25,032 bases of DNA from a virus. Below, one piece after another: positions 1 through 14,817 of the stretch. The stretch lies in the IMG/VR virus record IMGVR_UViG_3300025276_000202, positions 1 through 25,032 of that record. One strand, 5' to 3'. The notes beneath the pieces were generated by a model, which did not search any database, was not told the DNA's origin, and saw nothing but the letters and a program-made list of their open reading frames with translations. A program made the position numbers and the translations under genes. The first letter of the stretch is position 1, and the number at the start of each line of letters is the position of its first letter.

Positions 1-807
1 CCTCGCACAGAGAAGGGTGAGCTGATCTGTCCAGAGCGTTTCGGGCCCGATGAAGTTGCAGATCTCAAGCGACTGCTTGGCGTTTATGGAACCGCCGGTC
101 AGCTCCAGCAAGATCCGAACCCAGCCGAGGGTGGCATACTCAAGACGGATTACATCGAGATGTGGCCTTGCACCAAAGGATTGCCACCCTTCGAGTACAT
201 ACTGCAAAGCTATGACTGCGCCTTCACAGAGAAGACTACCGGCGACCCCACAGCGTGCAGCACCTGGGCGATCTTCACTCATGCAGGCCAGCACCACGTT
301 ATGCTGATTGATGCGTGGGATGAGCACCTTAGCTATCCAGATCTGCGAGAGCGCGCGATCAAGGACTGGAACACTGAATACGGAGGCATGACAAAAGACA
401 GTCAGTTCTCTAGACCTCGACGCGCAGATAGAATTCTGGTTGAGGCTAAGGCTTCGGGCCAGTCATTGCTGCAAGACCTGAGATTGGCCAAAGTACCGGC
501 TATCGGATACAACCCAGGCAATGCCGACAAGGTCAGCCGTGCTCACCAAGCTGCGCCAACCCTAGAGCTCGGCATGGTGTGGATACCTGAGTCGAAGAAA
601 AACCCAGGTCATTTCGTCAGCTGGGCGAATGACTTCGTAAAGCAGCTGTCGAAGTTTCCGGTTGCACCGCACGATGACTACGTTGATACTTTCACGCAAG
701 CCATAATTTACTTTAAGAATGACCGTTGGTTTGAGCTACCTCAAGCCAGAGACCCTGACGAGCGCCGTGTCGAACAGACTGTAAGGGCCAATCCGTATGC
801 AGCTTAG
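1..807 (+). CDS. terL: Terminase large subunit, C-terminal part (5' end outside window)
   Basis: This is the nuclease half of the DNA-packaging motor, which cuts concatemeric phage DNA at the portal. The reading frame is open from base 1, giving 268 visible residues; the ATPase domain lies upstream of the window. The segment around residues 7-48 has the usual linker pattern of terminases (PERF near 11, GQLQQDP at 33-39, EGGI at 43-46). The RNase H-like nuclease follows. Its three acidic sites are visible: D72 in SYDCAF, E148 in VEAKASG, and D225/D226 in HDDYVD. This matches the Asp-Glu-Asp layout of T4 gp17-like nucleases. The protein ends at a TAG, and the next gene starts ten bases later. 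The first ATG in this frame, at 160, is internal to a conserved domain and is not a true start. The family call is near certain. Confidence 0.95.
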   Translation, partial: PRTEKGELICPERFGPDEVADLKRLLGVYGTAGQLQQDPNPAEGGILKTDYIEMWPCTKGLPPFEYILQSYDCAFTEKTTGDPTACSTWAIFTHAGQHHVMLIDAWDEHLSYPDLRERAIKDWNTEYGGMTKDSQFSRPRRADRILVEAKASGQSLLQDLRLAKVPAIGYNPGNADKVSRAHQAAPTLELGMVWIPESKKNPGHFVSWANDFVKQLSKFPVAPHDDYVDTFTQAIIYFKNDRWFELPQARDPDERRVEQTVRANPYAA

Positions 808-816
808 GAGTAAACA

Positions 817-3800
817 ATGTCGCTGAAAGATGACCTGAAGTTAAACAAGCCAAGGCGCACGCCTAATCACGCGACGAAGTCTCACGTTGTGAAGACCAAC
901 GTAGACGGCAAGCCTAAGATGATCAGGTTTGGCGAGCAGGGTGCGAGCACCGCTGGAGCGCCGAGCCCTAACGATTCGGCAGCGGATAAGGCCAAGCGCA
1001 AGTCGTTCAAGGCCAGGCACGCATCTAACATTGCCAAGGGTCCGGCGTCTGCCGCATATTGGGCTGACAAAGTAAAGTGGGCTGAAGGCGGCGCGGTTGA
1101 AGAGAAAGAGATATATCAAATACCTCCCTCGTATCTTGATATTGCCGGTGATGTTGTATTCGACACTGTCTCTGGATTAGTTGGCCCTATTGCTGCGTCA
1201 GCGGCATCTCTGGGCGAGCAGGCATTCACTGATAACACCATTGAGGAAATGGCTCAGAACAACGAGGCTTACAACGCAGCTCTAAACTACATTCCAAGAA
1301 CTGCTGAAGGCCAGGCGACTAGCGACTACGCCATGGGAAAGCTGGGCGAAGGAGTGGCTTACCTAGCTGATACGTACAACGAGAACAAAGACTACCTGGG
1401 TCGCCTGGGACCAATCCCTGGCATGATCGACTACGGCATGGAGAAATACAACGAGCTCGAACCAGAGACTCAGTTTGCTACAGAAAACTTGCTAACGGTA
1501 GGCGAGGTTATCCCCGTCGGTAAAGCTGCCGGAATGGCCAAACGTGGCGCCGCACAGGGCGCACAGAGCGTCAAGCGAGGCGTGGAAAATGCGCTTGATT
1601 TAGCGAGCCGAATTGAGATTGATACGAATGTACTTGGTACGGTTGGCGGTAACATTACCGTAAGGCCAAAAACACCAGGCTTGGATAACTTACTTAAAGT
1701 TGAAAGTGGCGGCAATTTGAATGCCACATTGATTGGTAAGACCGGCGATACGTTTAGCATTCCTAGCGGCAAAGCTGTTTCAGAAATGACTATGAAAGAA
1801 CTGGAAAGTTTGCAGGGTGCTAGAGGTTCTGGAAGTTATCACGCATGGTCCAAGAGCAACATGCCTGAAGGAACAGAGGCATTCAAAGGAGGCTTAGGAT
1901 CGACGCCTGTAGGCAAATATCAATTCGTTGGAAATACGTTAAAGGATTTAAAAAATCGAGGTGTGTTGGCAAAACTAAACATAACCGATGATACTGTCTT
2001 TGATGAACAAACGCAGGATAGATTGTTTCTGGCTTTGGCTGAAGAACGTCTTGCTCAAGCCAGCAATGCCAAAGGCAAACGAGATGCAATGCGGAATACG
2101 TGGGAAGGCTTAAAGAGCAGTACCGACAAAGAGGTAGATATTGTTATCGCTGAGATTGAGGCCGGTAAACTTAATGGCAGTGCGGATACGGCTGCTGTAT
2201 TAACGGATACTCCTCACCGCCTAACGTCAACTGCCCGTGAAGTTGCAGATAAGCGAATTGCTCTGGAGAAAGAGATGGCTCTGTTAGAAGCGGAGAGATC
2301 TGGAAAAGCTCTAAAGCGTGTTGGATCGCAAGTTAAAATTGATGACCTGGCAAAAACTTTTGATACGGATCACATAGATGTACATGGCCGAAAGCTAGAT
2401 CCGACAGTAGCGGCGGATCAATTAATAGCTGCAAGAATCATTGCAGCTGACATCGACGCACAGATGACGCAAGCCAACTCTGGTGCGGGATGGTATGATG
2501 CAGATGTTGAGAAGACCTTTGAGATGTTGGGCGCGATACCTGGTCTCGAAGATTTACAGAATAATGAGACCAAAAGAATAATCTGGTCGGCTCTTGCTGC
2601 GCCCACATCGATCAACCAGAAAGTTATAAACAACACTAAGGCAGCTACGGCTGCTATGTTGACCTACGCACGCACCGGAGAGATCCCAATTGTTGCGCCA
2701 GTCAAGGACGCGACAACCCAAGGCATAAAGAATGCTGGCTGGGGCATGTATGGCGTTACTTCTGTTGAACCTGGTATGAAAGTCATATCGAAGTTGATTG
2801 AAAAGTACGGCGAAGAAGGTTTTGCTGATTGGTGGCTATCACCGCACACTTTAAAAGAACTGACAGACATTAGGAAAGAAGCTGGTTTAGGTGGTGGGCC
2901 TTCTGGCCTAAGTGGTGGCAAAGACAGTATTCACCTTGGAGCTATGGTTCTAGGTGACAAGACAGGTCGCTTCTCTCTGAACATAAATGGCTATGAGGGG
3001 ACCACGAAAGACGTTTGGTATTCTCGTAGCTACAACCGCGCATTTGGGCAAATGTTTGGCGCGAACGACCCGAAGACTGGATTGCCCGTGGTTCAGGGCG
3101 GTCCTAGAAATCAAACTGAACGCAGGCAAATGGAGGCTTTCAACCAGCTGGTTCTTGACAATACTGCGCTAAAAGGATTATCAGAGGCTGATGCACAGGC
3201 AGTTCTGTGGTTCTACGAACAAGGTTTATATTCTCGCTTGGGTGTTCAATCACGCCCAGGCTCATTTAGTGAAGGTGTAGGAGAAGTATATGGGTCTCTC
3301 GGATTACGACAGCCAGTTCGCGGAAGCGATGGCATTGAAATTGAAATTGAACCGCCAACAGCGCTCGACAACTTCCGCGACACCAGTGGAAGCGTCAGGG
3401 CCATCCGCGCCAACAGGCGTGCCAATGCGCGACTCGATAATGGATCAGGTCTTGGCGGAACGACCGGGCCTTACACGCGAGAAGTTGTCGAAACAGATGG
3501 CGGCACTGGGCTACTAAGCTTTACTCCCGACCCTGTTGTTTCCAAGCAATATGAAACAGCAGGTAATTCTCTCCCCGCCATTAGACAAGTAAATTCTGAG
3601 CCTAACGCTGCTACCTATAACGCAGACATGGTAGCTGCTATGGCAGAAAATCCTGCTGGCGCTCAAGTAGAAATAAAAAGCGCTGAAGACCTTTCAGGCT
3701 ACAATCTTTTCCGAACTGAAGCAGGCAGTGGGCTTGCCATTAAGCCTGACGGCGACATAGTAGCTGTGTTCGCCTCTCCTAATGAGCCCCCTCGCGGTTC

Positions 3801-5271
3801 CTACGCAATGCTGCAAGCCGCAGTCCAAGCAGGCGGCAAGAAGCTAGATGCGTTTGATACATTCCTACCTAAGATATACGAGTCAGCCGGATTTCGTCCA
3901 GTAGCGCGTCTTCCGTGGAACGATGAATTTGCCCCGCCAGGATGGGACAAGAAAGTATTTTCTGAACACAACAATGGCGAGCCAGACATTGTCTTCTTTG
4001 TGCATGACTCAAACTACTATGGCGGCGCAAAAGATATCCCTGTTGTTAAAGAATACGACCAAGCTGTTTTACTCCAAGATGAGGCACTGAAAGATATGAA
4101 TAATCCATTAGAAAGTTTTAGGATCGGCGGACTAGCTACAAAGAGCACCCCCATGCCTGTTAACGCTCCAGAAGGTATACAGCCTCTGACTTTGACGAGG
4201 GAGGATGGAGAGCTTCTTGTAGATCTAACTCCTATCATTGGAGACATTAAAGGCGGCATTGAAGGCGCCCAAATAATAATACAGGAATTAAAAGCTGATA
4301 ACCCTAATTGGCTGCTAATAGGAGTGATTGGCGGAGCGACGGTGGCAGGGATGATACCTCTTGTGGGTGTAGGAGCTAAAAAATTAATGATGAAAGGCGC
4401 CAACAAATTTAAAAAAGATAAAGTATTAGAAGAAACTTTAGATATGTTGCCGGTGCAAGAAGCTGAAATAGTTAAAGATTTAACTAATAAAAGCGCAGCC
4501 TATAGATTTGGTCTAACAGACATGGATCAGAACAAGGATATCGCCACTGCTTTTGAAGAAATGGTTGAGGACAATAAAGACTTATACACAGAAGATGTTT
4601 ATCATTTCACTAAAGGCACGACTAGGTCCGTAGGGGATGACGTACTTACAGGTGACAAGTTTGATCCGTCCGGCGGTAATAGCAGGTTTAATAGATTAGG
4701 AACACACGTTGGAACCCCAGAGGCCGCAAATGATCGCTCTGTATTCTTTTTAGGGCCGAATAACGATAGCCCCAAAGGAGGGGGAATAATGCCTTTGCGC
4801 GCAAGAGTTGATAAGCCCTTGCTCAATTCAAGCGGAGAAGTTTTTGGCGAAGAAGACATTATTCCTTTAATGAATAGATATGCTGATGATAACAAAATTG
4901 CTGATCTTGATATAGCTGCGGATATGTTTAGGCAAGAATTAACAGACCAAGGGTATACTCACATCCCGTATACAAATAATATTGAAGGACGCACTGATCT
5001 CGGTGAAAGAACTGAGAGTAAGATAATGCTTACTGACCGCACAGCCGGAGATCCCGCAGTTCTAAAAGGTAAGTTTGGTAAATATGAAGATGTTTACGAT
5101 CCTAGACTTATGAAAGCTGAAGGTGGAGCAGTTAATGCCCAGTATGACGCAGAGAGAATAAATAAAATCGCACAGAGCTTACTAACTGAAAACTTTGCAA
5201 AAGGCGGTCCAGTGACTTATAACGCGAGCAGAATTAATAAAATCGCCAACCGACTATTAGAGGAGCTTTAA
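817..5271 (+). CDS. Giant multi-domain 'polyvalent-like' phage protein (lysozyme-like, unknown domain, GNAT-like, ADP-ribosyltransferase-like)
   Basis: 1484 residues, start ATG after TAGGAG. Visible modules: residues 1-94, a basic module (KSHVVK, IRFGEQG, AAYWADKVKW) that I recall as a stand-alone small protein in other phages; about 285-430, a lysozyme/transglycosylase-like domain with candidate catalytic E296 (KVESGGN) and TPVGKYQF at 363-370; about 480-600, helical and charged; about 540-835, a large domain of unknown function (GWYDADVE, WYSRSYNRAFGQM, LWFYEQGLY); about 825-925, a low-complexity linker; about 929-1070, a GNAT-acetyltransferase-like domain (GLAIKPDGDIVAVF, YESAGFRPVARLPW); 1164-1186, a membrane segment; about 1258-1430, an ADP-ribosyltransferase-like domain (VYHFTKGTTR, LGTHVGTPEAANDR). 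The C-terminus (1443-1481) carries a duplicated RINKIA motif. Lying between terminase and portal, it may be packaged and injected. The lysozyme call is fairly good; the GNAT and ART calls are inference by pattern. Confidence 0.75.
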   Translation: MSLKDDLKLNKPRRTPNHATKSHVVKTNVDGKPKMIRFGEQGASTAGAPSPNDSAADKAKRKSFKARHASNIAKGPASAAYWADKVKWAEGGAVEEKEIYQIPPSYLDIAGDVVFDTVSGLVGPIAASAASLGEQAFTDNTIEEMAQNNEAYNAALNYIPRTAEGQATSDYAMGKLGEGVAYLADTYNENKDYLGRLGPIPGMIDYGMEKYNELEPETQFATENLLTVGEVIPVGKAAGMAKRGAAQGAQSVKRGVENALDLASRIEIDTNVLGTVGGNITVRPKTPGLDNLLKVESGGNLNATLIGKTGDTFSIPSGKAVSEMTMKELESLQGARGSGSYHAWSKSNMPEGTEAFKGGLGSTPVGKYQFVGNTLKDLKNRGVLAKLNITDDTVFDEQTQDRLFLALAEERLAQASNAKGKRDAMRNTWEGLKSSTDKEVDIVIAEIEAGKLNGSADTAAVLTDTPHRLTSTAREVADKRIALEKEMALLEAERSGKALKRVGSQVKIDDLAKTFDTDHIDVHGRKLDPTVAADQLIAARIIAADIDAQMTQANSGAGWYDADVEKTFEMLGAIPGLEDLQNNETKRIIWSALAAPTSINQKVINNTKAATAAMLTYARTGEIPIVAPVKDATTQGIKNAGWGMYGVTSVEPGMKVISKLIEKYGEEGFADWWLSPHTLKELTDIRKEAGLGGGPSGLSGGKDSIHLGAMVLGDKTGRFSLNINGYEGTTKDVWYSRSYNRAFGQMFGANDPKTGLPVVQGGPRNQTERRQMEAFNQLVLDNTALKGLSEADAQAVLWFYEQGLYSRLGVQSRPGSFSEGVGEVYGSLGLRQPVRGSDGIEIEIEPPTALDNFRDTSGSVRAIRANRRANARLDNGSGLGGTTGPYTREVVETDGGTGLLSFTPDPVVSKQYETAGNSLPAIRQVNSEPNAATYNADMVAAMAENPAGAQVEIKSAEDLSGYNLFRTEAGSGLAIKPDGDIVAVFASPNEPPRGSYAMLQAAVQAGGKKLDAFDTFLPKIYESAGFRPVARLPWNDEFAPPGWDKKVFSEHNNGEPDIVFFVHDSNYYGGAKDIPVVKEYDQAVLLQDEALKDMNNPLESFRIGGLATKSTPMPVNAPEGIQPLTLTREDGELLVDLTPIIGDIKGGIEGAQIIIQELKADNPNWLLIGVIGGATVAGMIPLVGVGAKKLMMKGANKFKKDKVLEETLDMLPVQEAEIVKDLTNKSAAYRFGLTDMDQNKDIATAFEEMVEDNKDLYTEDVYHFTKGTTRSVGDDVLTGDKFDPSGGNSRFNRLGTHVGTPEAANDRSVFFLGPNNDSPKGGGIMPLRARVDKPLLNSSGEVFGEEDIIPLMNRYADDNKIADLDIAADMFRQELTDQGYTHIPYTNNIEGRTDLGERTESKIMLTDRTAGDPAVLKGKFGKYEDVYDPRLMKAEGGAVNAQYDAERINKIAQSLLTENFAKGGPVTYNASRINKIANRLLEEL
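3279..3283 (+). promoter_or_regulatory. Shine-Dalgarno AGGAG of the embedded gene
   Basis: AGGAG lies six bases before the ATG at 3290, inside the long 817-5271 reading frame. An SD of this quality and spacing in front of an out-of-frame ATG supports independent translation of the overlapping 75-codon frame. Confidence 0.55.
3290..3517 (+). CDS. Small gene embedded out of frame in the giant-protein gene
   Basis: A 75-residue frame lies in the +1 phase relative to the 1484-residue gene. It has AGGAG six bases before its ATG and ends in TAC TAA. The product looks like a real small phage protein: a hydrophilic N-terminus (SDYDSQFAEAMALKLKLN), a Pro/Ser/Thr-rich middle at 26-45, and a helical C-terminus with RDSIMDQVL and RPGLTREKL (58-66), ending LGY. 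'PGLTREE..'-like endings recur in small phage proteins, from memory. The protein read in the long frame across the same bases is low-complexity (Gly/Arg/Thr-rich) and falls between two recognisable domains, as expected if this frame is the older one. About two thirds of the codons end in G or C. Function is unknown. The alternative is a chance ORF, but the SD and sensible product argue against that. Confidence 0.55.
   Translation: MGLSDYDSQFAEAMALKLKLNRQQRSTTSATPVEASGPSAPTGVPMRDSIMDQVLAERPGLTREKLSKQMAALGY
5143..5265 (+). repeat. Diverged tandem repeat encoding the C-terminus of the giant protein
   Basis: Residues 1443-1456 (YDAERINKIAQSLL) and 1468-1481 (YNASRINKIANRLL) are two copies 25 residues apart. 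Each is preceded by a Gly-Gly-x-Val element (AEGGAV at 1434-1439, AKGGPV at 1461-1466). The copies share AATAAAATCGC at the DNA level but differ elsewhere, so the duplication is not recent. Confidence 0.75.
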
Positions 5272-5272
5272 C

Positions 5273-7867
5273 GTGGCTGAAGAGAACGATATTGAAGTCG
5301 AAGTAGAAGAAATCACGATGGTTGAGCTCCCAATAGAAGAGCTAGATTTTGAAGATACTGAAGACGGTGGCGCAATTGTAAAGATGGAGTCAATCACTGT
5401 TAAGGAAGGTAGCGAGCACTTTGCTAACATTGTAGACGATGTAGACCCCAGTCTTTTAAAGACTTCCATTAATAACTTAATGGAGAAAATTGAGCGAGAC
5501 AAAGAAGCTCGTCAGAAGCGAGACCTTCAGTACGAAGAGGGATTGCGTCGCACCGGCCTTGGCGATGATGCGCCAGGCGGAGCTCAGTTTCAAGGAGCCA
5601 ACAAGGTTGTGCATCCCATGCTGGTCGAAGCTTGTGTTGACTTCTCTGCGCGATTTATTAAAGAAATATTCCCGCCTACTGGTCCAGTTAAGTCTAAGAT
5701 CATAGGTGAGGCAGACAAGTCAAAGGTCAAAAAAGCCCAGCGCAAGACTGAGTTTATGAATTGGCAGACTACTGAGCAGATGGTTGAGTTTCGTTCAGAG
5801 CTTGAACAGCTAAGCACGCAGCTTCCATTAGGCGGCGGTCAGTATATGAAGTTTATGTGGAACGCTCGATTTATGCGTCCCACCTCTGAATTTGTGCCTA
5901 TCGATGATATCTATCTGCCTTTCTCAGCAACAAACTTTTACACCGCAGAGCGCAAAACCCACGTTCAGTACGTCACGCAGATGGAGTACGAAAAGCGTGT
6001 CGAGGCTGGAATGTATGCAGATGTAGATCTGCCTACTCCAAATGATCCAGAATTTAGCGCGGCAGAGCGTGCAAACGAGAAAATTGAAGGCAAGCAGAAC
6101 ACTAGCTATAACGAAGATGGTTTGAGAACGATCTTTGAGATTTACACGTTCATGGACTTTGAAGACGGCGAAGGCTTAGCACCTTATATTTTGAGCGTAG
6201 ACAAGTCTTCTGATAAGGCGCTGTCTCTTTATCGTAACTGGGAAGAGGATGACACCAGGCAGAACGAGCTGCACTGGATTGTAGAATTCCCGTTTGTTCC
6301 TTGGCGGGGAGCTTATCCGATTGGCCTAACGCACATGATAGGTGGATTGAGTGGAGCAGCTACTGGCGCCCTACGAGCTCTTTTGGACTCGGCATATATC
6401 CAGAACGTGCCAACACTGTTAAAGCTGAAGGGTGGACCAAACGGTCAGACGCTAAATGTTCAGCCTACTGAGATCGTTGAGATGGAAGGCGGGGCGTTGA
6501 TTGATGACGTTCGCAAGCTTGCCATGCCACTGCCATTTGCCGGTCCCAGCCCTACTTTGTTTCAACTGCTCGGCTTCCTAGTTGATGCAGGCAAAGGCGT
6601 TGTTCAGACATCGTTTGAGAAGTTTAACGACCAGAATCCGAATGCACCAGTTGGCACGACGATGGCTATCATCGAGCAGGGCATGGTTGTGTTTAGCTCT
6701 ATCCATTCGCGCTTGCACGCATCCATGGCTCGCAGCTTTAACATCCTGCACCGCATTAACTCTATGTACTACACGCAGGAAGAGCTTGATGCGTTAGACG
6801 CTGGCCTGGAAATATCAGCAGAAGACTTTGACGGTCCATCAGACGTTGTGCCTATCAGTAATCCTGCGATATTTAGTGAAGCCCAACGCTTTGCTCAGAT
6901 TCAGGCGATTATGCAGCGTGCTGAAAAAATGCCGCAAATGTATGATCAAAAAGCGGTTGAAGAGTTGTTTTTACAGACGCTCAAGATCCCGCCTTCAGAG
7001 GTAATGCAGCAGCAACCAGGCTCAGAAGATAGAGACCCAGTAAGCGAGAACGTAGCAGCTGCCATGAACCAAGGCATTTACGTTCTGCCCCAGCAAGATC
7101 ACTTGGCTCATTTGCAGGTTCATTTGCCATTCTTAAAGTCTCCAATGTTTGGGTCCAGCCCTGGCATTATGAGCACATTCTTTTATCCAATGGCGTTGCA
7201 CATGCGAGATCATGTATTAAACTATTATCTAGTAGAATCTCACAGTGCTATTGATCAGGCGCAGACTGAACAGTTAATTCCTGAAGAGGCAGAGCAGCAA
7301 GTAGAAGTTATTCTTAAAGTTCAATCTTTTATCGAAGAGCAGCTAGGTGGGTTTGCTCAAGAATTGGCTCAAATTAATGAAACTGCACAGCAGTTTAAGC
7401 CTGAAAATCAGCCTCAACAGCCTGGCGATGCAATAAAAATCGCAGAGCTCAGCGCGCAGATTAAGCAAAGTGAGCTTGCCCAGCGCACAGAACGCGATGG
7501 CGCCAGAATTCAACTGGACAACGCCAAAATGCAAGCAGCTAATGAAATTGCACAACTTAAAATGCAACAGACTGCTGAGATTGAACGCGCTAAACTGGCA
7601 GCTAAGCAAGCTGAGCGTGAAGATAAAGCAGACGCTCAAGGTCTTCAGCAACTTTCTGAAACAGAGCGCAACAACATTAAAGAGATGTCTGAGACAGATC
7701 GACTTAATACTCGTGAGAAAGGCGAGAATAAGCGTAAGGCGGAAGACCTGGCGGCTAGAGAGCGCATGAATGATGCTGACAACAGGACCGCCAAAGAGCT
7801 GGCCAATATGGAAATGGAGTCAGGAGAAAAAACCTCATACACTAGCGGAAAAGGAATTGATCCATAA
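5273..7867 (+). CDS. Portal protein
   Basis: This 864-residue protein is the size expected for a P22/marine-podovirus portal, the dodecameric ring through which DNA is packaged and ejected. The start is GTG, one base after the previous stop, with GAGGAG at 5260-5265 giving good spacing; no upstream ATG fits. The N-terminus (1-50) is strongly acidic. The core has GAQFQGANKVVHPMLVEA, FIKEIFPPTGPVK, FVPIDDIYLPFSATNF, and near 455-500 NPNAPVGTTMAIIEQG followed by SSIHSRLHASMARSF. These are the most typical portal segments of this group as I remember it. From about 715 to 850 it is a long charged coiled coil (Glu/Lys/Gln/Arg-rich), comparable in position to the P22 portal's C-terminal barrel helix. 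It overlaps the next gene by one base (TAATG). The portal assignment is confident; the exact subfamily is not. Confidence 0.9.
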   Translation: MAEENDIEVEVEEITMVELPIEELDFEDTEDGGAIVKMESITVKEGSEHFANIVDDVDPSLLKTSINNLMEKIERDKEARQKRDLQYEEGLRRTGLGDDAPGGAQFQGANKVVHPMLVEACVDFSARFIKEIFPPTGPVKSKIIGEADKSKVKKAQRKTEFMNWQTTEQMVEFRSELEQLSTQLPLGGGQYMKFMWNARFMRPTSEFVPIDDIYLPFSATNFYTAERKTHVQYVTQMEYEKRVEAGMYADVDLPTPNDPEFSAAERANEKIEGKQNTSYNEDGLRTIFEIYTFMDFEDGEGLAPYILSVDKSSDKALSLYRNWEEDDTRQNELHWIVEFPFVPWRGAYPIGLTHMIGGLSGAATGALRALLDSAYIQNVPTLLKLKGGPNGQTLNVQPTEIVEMEGGALIDDVRKLAMPLPFAGPSPTLFQLLGFLVDAGKGVVQTSFEKFNDQNPNAPVGTTMAIIEQGMVVFSSIHSRLHASMARSFNILHRINSMYYTQEELDALDAGLEISAEDFDGPSDVVPISNPAIFSEAQRFAQIQAIMQRAEKMPQMYDQKAVEELFLQTLKIPPSEVMQQQPGSEDRDPVSENVAAAMNQGIYVLPQQDHLAHLQVHLPFLKSPMFGSSPGIMSTFFYPMALHMRDHVLNYYLVESHSAIDQAQTEQLIPEEAEQQVEVILKVQSFIEEQLGGFAQELAQINETAQQFKPENQPQQPGDAIKIAELSAQIKQSELAQRTERDGARIQLDNAKMQAANEIAQLKMQQTAEIERAKLAAKQAEREDKADAQGLQQLSETERNNIKEMSETDRLNTREKGENKRKAEDLAARERMNDADNRTAKELANMEMESGEKTSYTSGKGIDP

Positions 7868-8559
7868 TGGCATTTCTACAAGGCAACATACCGCACTTTA
7901 AGTGCTGGGTCAGGAAAGAATACACTCACAACCATGAGAAGTTTCATGGCGAGTGGATTCATGCGATGGCCGTAGCTGTAACCACGCTGCCTAATAGATG
8001 TTTAAGCTTCCAGATTATATTTACTGGGGCTGAAACTTATGACACAGATGAATCTAATGTTCATGGTGGAGCAATGTGGGCAAGAATGCCTATAACTGCT
8101 CTAATGGGGGACACTCCGGTTGACGAGTGGCCAGAGCCGATGTCTACACATGACGCCCAACCTTGGGACTGTGCATCTCGCACTCACAGCGTCTATGTTC
8201 TAGACCGATGTACGCCAGCTCCTTGGCTGGCAAAGATTGACGGGGAGTTTTATCCTGCCAAATACTATTTTACTGTGGACTATACCGATTCAGAAGTTGC
8301 AGACGATCCAGCTCAACATAAGCAGGCGCACGTTCTAGAACTTCTTGATGCAGGAAAGTGGACAGGTAATATAGTAGCCTTACCTAACAATAGAGTTCGT
8401 GTAAGCCACCCAGCTTGGTTTGAACTAGGAGAAGGTGCTCCTGATTTTAGACCTTCTCAACACATCCATTACAGTAAATCTGATCTGGATTACACGTTGG
8501 ACGTTAACCAAGTTTTTGATAACATTTATGCAGAGGAAGAAGATAATGATGAAAAGTAA
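7867..8559 (+). CDS. Conserved phage protein of unknown function after the portal
   Basis: 230 residues, start in a TAATG overlap with the portal stop, so probably translationally coupled to it. I do not recognise a functional family. The sequence is rich in aromatic residues, His and Trp (FKCWVRKEYTHNHEKFHGEW near the start; AWFELGEGAPDFRPSQHIHY near the end), with alternating beta-type segments, no signal peptide and no membrane helix. The C-terminus is acidic (EEEDNDEK). It looks like a folded, soluble beta-rich protein, and its place between portal and scaffold suggests a role in the head or in head assembly. A head-tail joining or minor virion protein is possible, but nothing in the sequence proves it. 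Confidence 0.7.
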   Translation: MAFLQGNIPHFKCWVRKEYTHNHEKFHGEWIHAMAVAVTTLPNRCLSFQIIFTGAETYDTDESNVHGGAMWARMPITALMGDTPVDEWPEPMSTHDAQPWDCASRTHSVYVLDRCTPAPWLAKIDGEFYPAKYYFTVDYTDSEVADDPAQHKQAHVLELLDAGKWTGNIVALPNNRVRVSHPAWFELGEGAPDFRPSQHIHYSKSDLDYTLDVNQVFDNIYAEEEDNDEK

Positions 8560-8719
8560 AGGTTACGCCAAAGGCGGTAAAACCAAAGGCGGCAAAATGA
8601 AGAGCAAGGGCTACGCCAAAGGCGGTGCAGTCAATATGAGTTCTGATGCAGTTCCGCAGCACAAGCGTATGGCAGCTGGATATAAAGTTAATAAGACTTC
8701 TAGCACTACTAACTCTTAA
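8546..8719 (+). CDS. KSKGYAKGG small basic protein
   Basis: The likely start is the ATGATG at 8546/8549 behind AGAGGAAGAAG, giving 56-57 residues that begin MMKSKGYAKGG. It overlaps the end of the preceding gene in another frame. A longer version from further upstream has no better support. The first 30 residues hold two copies of KSKGYAKGG separated by KTKGGKM, then AVNMSSDAVPQHKRMAAGYKV and a Ser/Thr tail. It is very basic and glycine-rich, with no membrane helix. A relative with three tandem copies of the same motif is encoded at 14500-14817. Similar KGYAKGG proteins are common in marine phages by memory, but I know of no function; DNA-associated internal protein or virion assembly tag are guesses. 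Confidence 0.7.
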   Translation: MMKSKGYAKGGKTKGGKMKSKGYAKGGAVNMSSDAVPQHKRMAAGYKVNKTSSTTNS

Positions 8720-8918: not shown

Positions 8919-9115
8919 TGAATATAGACTCTAAACTTTTAAACCTTCTCAAAGCAAACCAAGCAGAATTTGCGCTTGAAGCTTTGAGGAGGCCACAAAA
9001 ACGCGATACTTTCGAGTACGGGTATCGAGTTGGTATGGTTGCAGGTTACGAGGCAGCTATTGATGTACTCTTGAACTTAATAGATGAGGATAAAAATGGA
9101 ATCCAAGACTTATGA
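8918..9115 (+). CDS. Small helical protein of unknown function
   Basis: 65 residues, coupled to the previous gene by TAATG and overlapping the start of the GroES-like gene. It reads as mostly alpha-helical: LLNLLKANQAEFALEALRR, then EYGYRVGMVAGYEAAIDVLL and an acidic end. The middle part (YGYRVGMVAGYEAAIDVLLNLI) resembles a short amphipathic helix pair of the kind seen in many small phage proteins ('F.yG...G...G...al..l'). No catalytic or metal-binding motif is visible. Tight coupling on both sides supports it as a real gene. Function unknown. Confidence 0.7.
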   Translation: MNIDSKLLNLLKANQAEFALEALRRPQKRDTFEYGYRVGMVAGYEAAIDVLLNLIDEDKNGIQDL

Positions 9116-9515
9116 GGACGCACTTGCGGAGGCTTTCCCAGCAGTAAATGCTGGAATACGGCCTTTCGGTAGCCGCGTTCTGATCCAGATACGCACAGCA
9201 AAAAGCAGAACAGCTGGCGGCATCATACTAACCACTGATACTTCTGAAACAGAGAAGTGGAATACTCAGATTGGTAAGGTAGTTTCTGTTGGGCCTTTAG
9301 CTTTTAAAAATCGTAATACGATGGAAAGTTGGCCCGAAGGTAATTGGTGTTTGGAAGGCGATTTTGTGAGAGTTGCTAAATACGGTGGAGATCGGTGGGA
9401 AGTTCCTATTCCTGATGCTCCCCACGGTGAATCAGCAATGTTTGTAATTTTTAATGATCTTGACATTATGGGTAGCGTTGAAGGCGACCCACTTAAAGTT
9501 AAGGCATTCATCTGA
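9096..9515 (+). CDS. groES: GroES-like phage co-chaperonin
   Basis: 139 residues from ATG 9096, preceded by GAGGAT; the in-frame ATG at 9084 would place that SD inside the gene. From residue 21 it follows the Cpn10 pattern: IRPFGSRVLIQI, then AGGIILT at 40-46, then GKVVSVGP. The AGGI-I-L-T stretch matches the GroES mobile-loop segment (AGGIVLTG in E. coli GroES), whose hydrophobic tripeptide binds GroEL. The remainder (LEGDFVRVAKYGGDRWEVP, FVIFNDLDIMG) matches the barrel strands and the usual DIL/DIM ending. A C-terminal extension of about 15 residues and a 20-residue N-terminal extension go beyond a minimal GroES. Phages such as T4 (gp31) use their own co-chaperonin to fold the capsid protein, and this gene sits just upstream of scaffold and capsid genes. 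Confidence 0.88.
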   Translation: MESKTYEDALAEAFPAVNAGIRPFGSRVLIQIRTAKSRTAGGIILTTDTSETEKWNTQIGKVVSVGPLAFKNRNTMESWPEGNWCLEGDFVRVAKYGGDRWEVPIPDAPHGESAMFVIFNDLDIMGSVEGDPLKVKAFI

Positions 9516-14499: not shown

Positions 14500-14817
14500 A
14501 TGGGTATGAAATCAAAAGGATATGCTAAAGGTGGCATGAAATCCAAAGGGTCAGCTAAAGGCGGTATGAAATCCAAAGGCTACGCTATGGGCGGTATGAA
14601 ACAGGGCTATAATGCTCGTTTAGACGATTCAATGGGATCTAGGAATGGATCAAAGAATCAATCTATGGGTTCTCGCCGCAATGAAAGCAAGGGTATGGAG
14701 AAGTCCATGGGAAACCGAGCATATTCAGGTAATATGAGCAGTGCTCAAGGATATAAAAGTGGCGGCTCTGTAGACGGGTTTAAGAAAATGGGAACCATGA
14801 AGAACAGTTGGGATTAA
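14500..14817 (+). CDS. KSKGYAKGG tandem-repeat protein
   Basis: 105 residues after AAGGAG. Residues 3-32 are three ten-residue copies: MKSKGYAKGG, MKSKGSAKGG, MKSKGYAMGG, then a decayed MKQGYNA. The rest is rich in Ser, Met, Gly, Asn and Lys/Arg (DDSMGSRNGSK, SMGSRRNESKG, SMGNRAYSGNMSS) and holds a further SGGSV element near 88-92 (GYKSGGSVDGF). It is basic and probably disordered, with no fold motif. It shares the KSKGYAKGG motif with the 8546-8719 protein, so the two are related. A 67-base gap without a clear promoter separates it from the next gene. Function is unknown; DNA-interacting internal protein or assembly tag are possibilities only. Confidence 0.7.
   Translation: MGMKSKGYAKGGMKSKGSAKGGMKSKGYAMGGMKQGYNARLDDSMGSRNGSKNQSMGSRRNESKGMEKSMGNRAYSGNMSSAQGYKSGGSVDGFKKMGTMKNSWD
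14506..14595 (+). repeat. Three 30-base in-frame tandem repeats
   Basis: Units at 14506-14535, 14536-14565 and 14566-14595 all begin ATGAAATC(C/A)AAAGG and end GG(C/T)GG(C/T). They differ at a few, mostly silent, positions, so they are under protein-level selection rather than freshly duplicated. A degenerate fourth copy starts at 14596. This is not a CRISPR: there are no spacers. Confidence 0.9.

Follow-up and report, generated by a model that had tools for sequence, protein, structure and literature searches.

We analyzed a 25,032-nt stretch of a marine phage record (hereafter, the window), in which a single giant gene lies between the genes for the terminase large subunit and the portal protein. 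Judged from its sequence relatives, the gene in this slot is a polyvalent cassette with constant ends, variable cargo, and a tag-like linker. The encoded protein is probably a phage effector cassette that is ejected with the DNA and whose modules act on the wall, the membrane, bases, and host proteins. New here are the assignment of one of its domains as HhH-GPD-like and the cassette layout, in which the ends stay constant and a short motif recurs. The features of the locus are as follows.

1..807, + strand: terminase large subunit, C-terminal part, truncated at the window edge (phrog_38, E 6e-38)
817..5271, + strand: polyvalent protein gene, 1484 aa (open frame, ribosome-binding site, conserved slot)
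817..1092, + strand: N-terminal module, residues 1-92, net charge +11 (phrog_7595, E 3e-30)
1078..1098, + strand: first module-edge motif, WAEGGAV, residues 88-94 (motif counts)
1114..1602, + strand: hydrophobic-segment module, residues 100-262, with the segment at 109-127 (hydropathy; duplicated before a second cargo in some relatives)
1666..2196, + strand: lysozyme-like domain, residues 284-460, conserved Glu296 (profile match, alignment)
2329..3354, + strand: HhH-GPD-like domain, residues 505-846, invariant Lys715 and Asp732 (structure model, VIA-align, conservation)
3466..4092, + strand: GNAT-like acetyltransferase domain, residues 884-1092 (homology to phage acetyltransferases and minor capsid tails)
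4315..4371, + strand: hydrophobic segment, residues 1167-1185, probably membrane-spanning (Kyte-Doolittle mean 2.06)
4588..5106, + strand: ART-PolyVal-like domain, residues ~1258-1430 (hhalign profile-profile comparison)
5116..5268, + strand: C-terminal tail, residues 1434-1484, GG motif plus short helix, twice (tail profile in most slot proteins)
5273..7867, + strand: portal protein (phrog_1216, E 3e-13)

A functional gene between terminase and portal

The 1484-aa protein is encoded by a single uninterrupted frame that begins with ATG and is preceded by AGGAG, a good ribosome-binding site. The original prediction of one open reading frame (ORF) between terminase and portal was borne out by the frame, the ribosome-binding site, and the PHROG matches on both flanks. 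The terminase of the window was 88-94% identical to those of close relatives. Promoter and terminator scans around the ORF yielded only background levels, and no tRNAs or RNA families were found in the window. Direct searches of Pfam, NCBIfam, and the PDB with the whole ORF returned no significant match, and no peptidase domain was recognized in the protein.

Comparison with relatives revealed that the modules of the ORF diverge mostly at synonymous sites (dN/dS, 0.04-0.40), and the ORF is therefore a functional gene. An assembly chimera or artefactual fusion was ruled out by the same slot and synteny on many independent contigs and by the purifying selection. The base composition differed between the parts of the ORF, with a GC3 of 0.67 for the N-terminal module and 0.33 for the ART part, a pattern compatible with a mosaic origin.

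Two neighboring genes were also recorded. The gene directly 3' of the portal gene (7867-8559) matched phrog_3704, which is annotated as ferredoxin in the host-takeover category (E 7e-27), and the ORF at 9084-9515, situated between the portal and the major capsid protein, has the position and synteny of the co-chaperonin GroES genes of Caulobacter phage RW and pelagiphage HTVC023P.

Constant ends and exchanged cargo

A portal search of IMG/VR identified 207 related loci, 80 of which were examined; the slot set comprised 36 distinct complete ORFs with a portal identity of at least 60%. These ORFs ranged from 237 to 1881 aa. The N-terminal phrog_7595 module was present in 29 of the 36, the GG motif occurred within the final 60 residues in 34, and nearly all ended in a YD/YN...I...I helix. 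The two 237-aa proteins, L096 and L123, consist almost solely of the two constant ends. Among loci with portals 79-94% identical to that of the window, the middles of the slot proteins were exchanged wholesale: the lysozyme was replaced or missing, the ART was missing or replaced, and the hydrophobic module was duplicated before a second cargo. Pfam cargo in 30 slot proteins included ART-PolyVal (6), DUF6973 (5), SLT (2), Zeta toxin, CHAP, PcfJ, and methyltransferase domains. Between the window and L003/L005, the synonymous divergence was 1.4-1.6 for the terminase, portal, and GNAT versus 0.6 for the HhH domain; the lower value of the HhH domain, in this one pair, is as expected if the modules move separately.

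The nearest isolates by portal are Caulobacter phages (49% identity), which carry a tRNA-Val and no annotated ORF in the slot; in phage RW, the tRNA-Val gene (L277:10963-11036) fills the terminase-portal gap in which the window group has its giant gene. The slot of CRP-901 contains no ORF, and that of HTVC023P encodes a 201-aa basic protein.

The claim of a basic N-terminal module was confirmed, residues 1-92 being a member of phrog_7595. This module exhibited a dN/dS of 0.04-0.08 and has relatives at no fewer than 597 loci in IMG/VR. In the majority of the 80 loci examined from this set, the relative was a stand-alone protein of ~92 aa ending in ...VKW; the fused forms pass straight into A[ED]GGxV. 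In loci L187-L192, the module is embedded within a giant protein. The stand-alone copies are found among virion genes: one in KBS-S-2A lies between the minor head protein and the coat protein, and other stand-alone copies lie between P22-like tail accessory and stabilization genes.

The proposed membrane segment was likewise upheld by the strong hydrophobicity of residues 1167-1185. Absent from the original prediction were a second and weaker hydrophobic segment (109-127), the repeat in the C-terminal tail, and the recurring GG motif. The module carrying the second segment is duplicated in L002, L098, L107, and L114, with one copy per cargo, as if each effector brought its own membrane-crossing unit.

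A repeated motif at the module edges

The repeated motif, [YFW]-A-x-G-G-x-V followed by a helix, punctuates the module edges. In 52 representative slot proteins, [YFWM][ASR]xGG occurred in 170 copies, compared with 9.7 expected (maximum of 18 in 200 shuffles). A stricter form of the motif occurred 29 times per 10,000 aa in slot proteins and 1.0 times per 10,000 aa in the remaining genes of those contigs, and the exceptions outside the slot proteins were mostly small basic KGYAKGG proteins. None of 118 copies fell inside a recognized domain, although such domains make up 21% of the residues; the motif thus marks module edges. The window also contains two small basic ORFs (8560-8719 and 14500-14817) with tandem KSKGYAKGG units that bear the same GG motif.

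The motif may serve as a loading tag, as a cleavage site, or as a hinge that gives the protein the flexibility to thread through the portal; it may also be a recombination scar kept by selection. We tentatively put forward, as a reading with somewhat less than even chances, that the repeat of [YFW]AxGGxV plus helix is a dedicated cargo signal, either a virion-loading tag for arbitrary effectors or a polyprotein cut site. No description of the motif was found in the literature searched.

An HhH-GPD-like domain

The original prediction had described a large unknown domain at residues 540-835. The domain proved to be real and was conserved in every relative found to carry it (residues 505-846), and the label "unknown" no longer applies because its model matches the HhH-GPD superfamily. 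The AlphaFold model had a pLDDT of 89 and a pTM of 0.86. VIA-align matched it to 14 chains with Z of 7.5-11.9, all of the HhH-GPD superfamily, and the next chain scored 2.6; helical folds can yield middling Z values in VIA-align, and the fold match is accordingly of moderate certainty. The matches comprised Mja Ogg, DUF2419/Qng1, MagIII, MutY, AGOG, and the phage PUGT. Foldseek with the model alone was weak (E 0.14), and hhalign of the domain against six bacterial HhH-GPD members was nonsignificant (E 0.74), with the aligned part being the hairpin-Asp stretch. A PDB sequence search with the domain returned no match, and tblastn searches for it in phage isolates yielded only chance matches.

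Lys715 and Asp732 were invariant in 39 sequences and also in ten very divergent ones. Their spacing would correspond to that between the hairpin Lys and the catalytic Asp in Nth and other bifunctional glycosylases. On the basis of the model, residues 505-846 probably have an HhH-GPD-like fold and a chemistry directed at nucleic-acid bases. The same domain was present in bacterial and prophage giants of 2565-3249 aa together with LPD22, ART-PolyVal, or PBECR5, and in phage DC33 and viral models named polyvalent or ART-PolyVal-like.

The domain might instead be a nucleosidase or base-modifying enzyme, similar to DUF2419/Qng1 or to phage amino acid:DNA transferases, whose substrates are modified nucleosides in tRNA or phage DNA, and not a DNA glycosylase. 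DUF2419 was the second structural family (Z 9.9), the phage PUGT was the best Foldseek match (VIA-align Z 7.5), and an amino acid:DNA transferase appeared weakly in a viral library search with the domain. However, the top VIA-align match was an 8-oxoguanine glycosylase/lyase (193 of 205 residues, Z 11.9), and the invariant hairpin Lys presumably fits a bifunctional glycosylase/lyase, which counts against a nucleosidase. We therefore regard this alternative as rather doubtful.

In one relative with the same slot (L113:367-4227), a different domain (residues ~300-790) occupies the position of the HhH-GPD-like domain. Its sole alignable stretch retains the Lys and the Asp at 15% identity, and it is perhaps an alternative enzyme of the HhH-GPD fold.

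Lysozyme-, GNAT-, and ART-like domains

A lysozyme-like domain had been proposed at residues 285-430. The region at ~284-460, aligned with phage relatives (some annotated as endolysin or lysozyme), matched lambda lysozyme (1am7) at the profile level (E 2.9e-4), and Glu296 was kept wherever the alignment covered the site; profile similarity to lambda-type lysozymes and the catalytic Glu were thus both present.

Two lines of evidence backed the GNAT-like domain, namely its homology to phage acetyltransferases and its presence in fused minor capsid proteins; profile matches were weak. Residues 884-1092 shared 36-39% identity with the C-termini of minor capsid proteins from Microbacterium phages and with a portion of the DC33 giant; they were also related to Streptomyces phage proteins annotated as acetyltransferase. 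In a Methanobrevibacter virus, the domain again lies within a minor capsid protein, and Pseudomonas phage Alpheus encodes it in a gene of its own, located upstream of that for RNA polymerase. Pfam GNAT matches in the relatives were consistent but weak, and the only PDB entries below E 10 were two acetyltransferases (E 0.1 and 0.5).

One explanation for the whole protein is that its main role is in virion ejection or in piercing the wall, similar to T7 gp16 or a lytic internal protein; the active parts would then be the lysozyme and the membrane segments, with the remaining domains being structural or decayed passengers. Wall-lytic domains do recur in the slot (lysozyme in the window, SLT and CHAP elsewhere), and the gene lies beside the portal. 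However, certain slot relatives, such as the 1125-aa L003-L005 and the 237-aa L096, have no recognized lytic domain, and strong purifying selection acts on the HhH and GNAT modules (dN/dS, 0.10-0.17), which retain catalytic-type residues. These findings render the explanation unlikely.

The ART-like domain stood at the profile level and found no backing from structure prediction. When compared with 24 ART-PolyVal sequences by using hhalign, the region scored a probability of 93.4% (E 2.6e-7), versus 0.1-0.2% for control profiles. The structure prediction, made on two sequences, yielded an unusable model (pLDDT 38.7). The active site of ART-PolyVal is His-Tyr-Asp (PMC5512222). By eye, the YH motif was present in the window protein, and the strand-2 LGTHVGT lacked a tyrosine, which seems to have been replaced. 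Searches with the region returned nothing in phage isolates and a single relative in IMG/VR. A 634-aa protein (L010:5971-7875) starts with an ART part 84% identical to that of the window and continues with an AEGG motif and an SLT lytic transglycosylase.

Proposed packaging and mode of action

The reading of the gene product as a polyvalent protein was correct in architecture, domain types, and genomic position. One polypeptide combines at least two unrelated domains (lysozyme, HhH-GPD-like, GNAT, and ART-like), its gene, flanked directly by those for the terminase and the portal, is situated close to late or virion genes of a phage of the portal-terminase type, and it has domains in common with other polyvalent proteins. 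We infer that the 1484-aa protein is packaged and injected. A role as an injected virion protein is consistent with the slot beside the portal and with the occurrence elsewhere of the N-terminal module among head proteins and of the GNAT fused to them.

The protein could alternatively be a late-expressed cytoplasmic effector that is never packaged and is directed, for example, against competing phages, with its adjacency to the portal being incidental. Relatives of the GNAT do exist as ordinary nonvirion genes, but fused wall-lytic domains are ill-suited to a cytoplasmic protein, the N-terminal module belongs to a virion-region family, and the GNAT is fused to head proteins in other phages. 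We consider this alternative very improbable.

For an ejected effector cassette, we propose the following sequence of events. The protein would be synthesized late, together with the head proteins, and the phrog_7595 module and the helices of the C-terminal tail would probably anchor it within the virion, at the portal or close by. Comparison of slot proteins shows that cargo is exchanged at the module edges marked by [YFW]AxGGxV. Upon infection, the protein would be ejected alongside the DNA; the lysozyme domain would open the peptidoglycan, and the hydrophobic segments would aid inner-membrane crossing. In the cytoplasm, the HhH-GPD-like enzyme may act on DNA bases or a related nucleoside substrate, and the GNAT and ART-like domains may modify host proteins, resulting in cell takeover or a disarmed defence. 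Hijacking of host proteins by the ART and GNAT domains of polyvalent proteins has been proposed (PMC5512222 and PMC7824862).

Comparison with known systems

According to the text of Iyer et al. (2017, PMC5512222), polyvalent proteins include lysozyme, GNAT, and ART domains, with GNAT typically beside ART. Similar to those proteins, the window protein combines many unrelated enzyme domains in a late-gene context. In contrast to what that text describes, it has a constant N-terminal module, a tail, and a repeated GG motif, and no zincin peptidase was recognized in it. The HhH-GPD-like domain goes unnamed and the term "glycosylase" is absent in the text of the same paper, whose supplementary tables may list the HhH-GPD-like domain under another name; an HhH-GPD polyvalent domain was not found in the literature searched.

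MuF polymorphic toxins (Jamet et al. 2017, PMC5576092) likewise join a constant virion-linked part, a link that is probable for the window protein, to variable effectors in a gene of the packaging module. The window protein differs from them in that it has neither MuF nor VG15, its constant part being phrog_7595 and the C-terminal tail, and in that it carries multiple effectors per polypeptide. Identity with MuF toxins was rejected, given that the ORF had no Pfam match and that MuF was not listed among the 30 slot proteins.

The giants of Limnohabitans phage DC33 and Polynucleobacter (L086) share the HhH-GPD-like domain with the window protein, and that of DC33 additionally carries the same GNAT and an ART-PolyVal. 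Both differ in being 2565-3125 aa long, in carrying LPD22, and in having no phrog_7595 module that we could find. Packaging and delivery with DNA, proposed here, have been demonstrated for host-takeover enzymes packaged in the head, such as T4 Alt, and for P1 DarA/Hdf (PMC12810830), whose sequences are unrelated to the window protein. The Rac acetyltransferase of LUZ19 (PMC7552054) is a phage GNAT for host takeover; a kinship of the window GNAT with Rac was rejected at the sequence level because no relation to LUZ19 Gp28 was detected.

Significance

These findings provide a probable fold and chemistry (HhH-GPD) for a widespread polyvalent-protein domain for which our searches revealed no Pfam model. 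The selection and loading of injected proteins by phages are understood for only a small number of systems. The slot offers natural matched constructs, with near-identical portals, cargo ranging from almost none to several modules, constant ends, and a repeated short motif, and a loading or processing signal is therefore directly testable in phage. If the motif is a cargo signal, the locus would amount to a plug-in delivery cassette of natural origin, with the 237-aa L096 as its nearly empty version.
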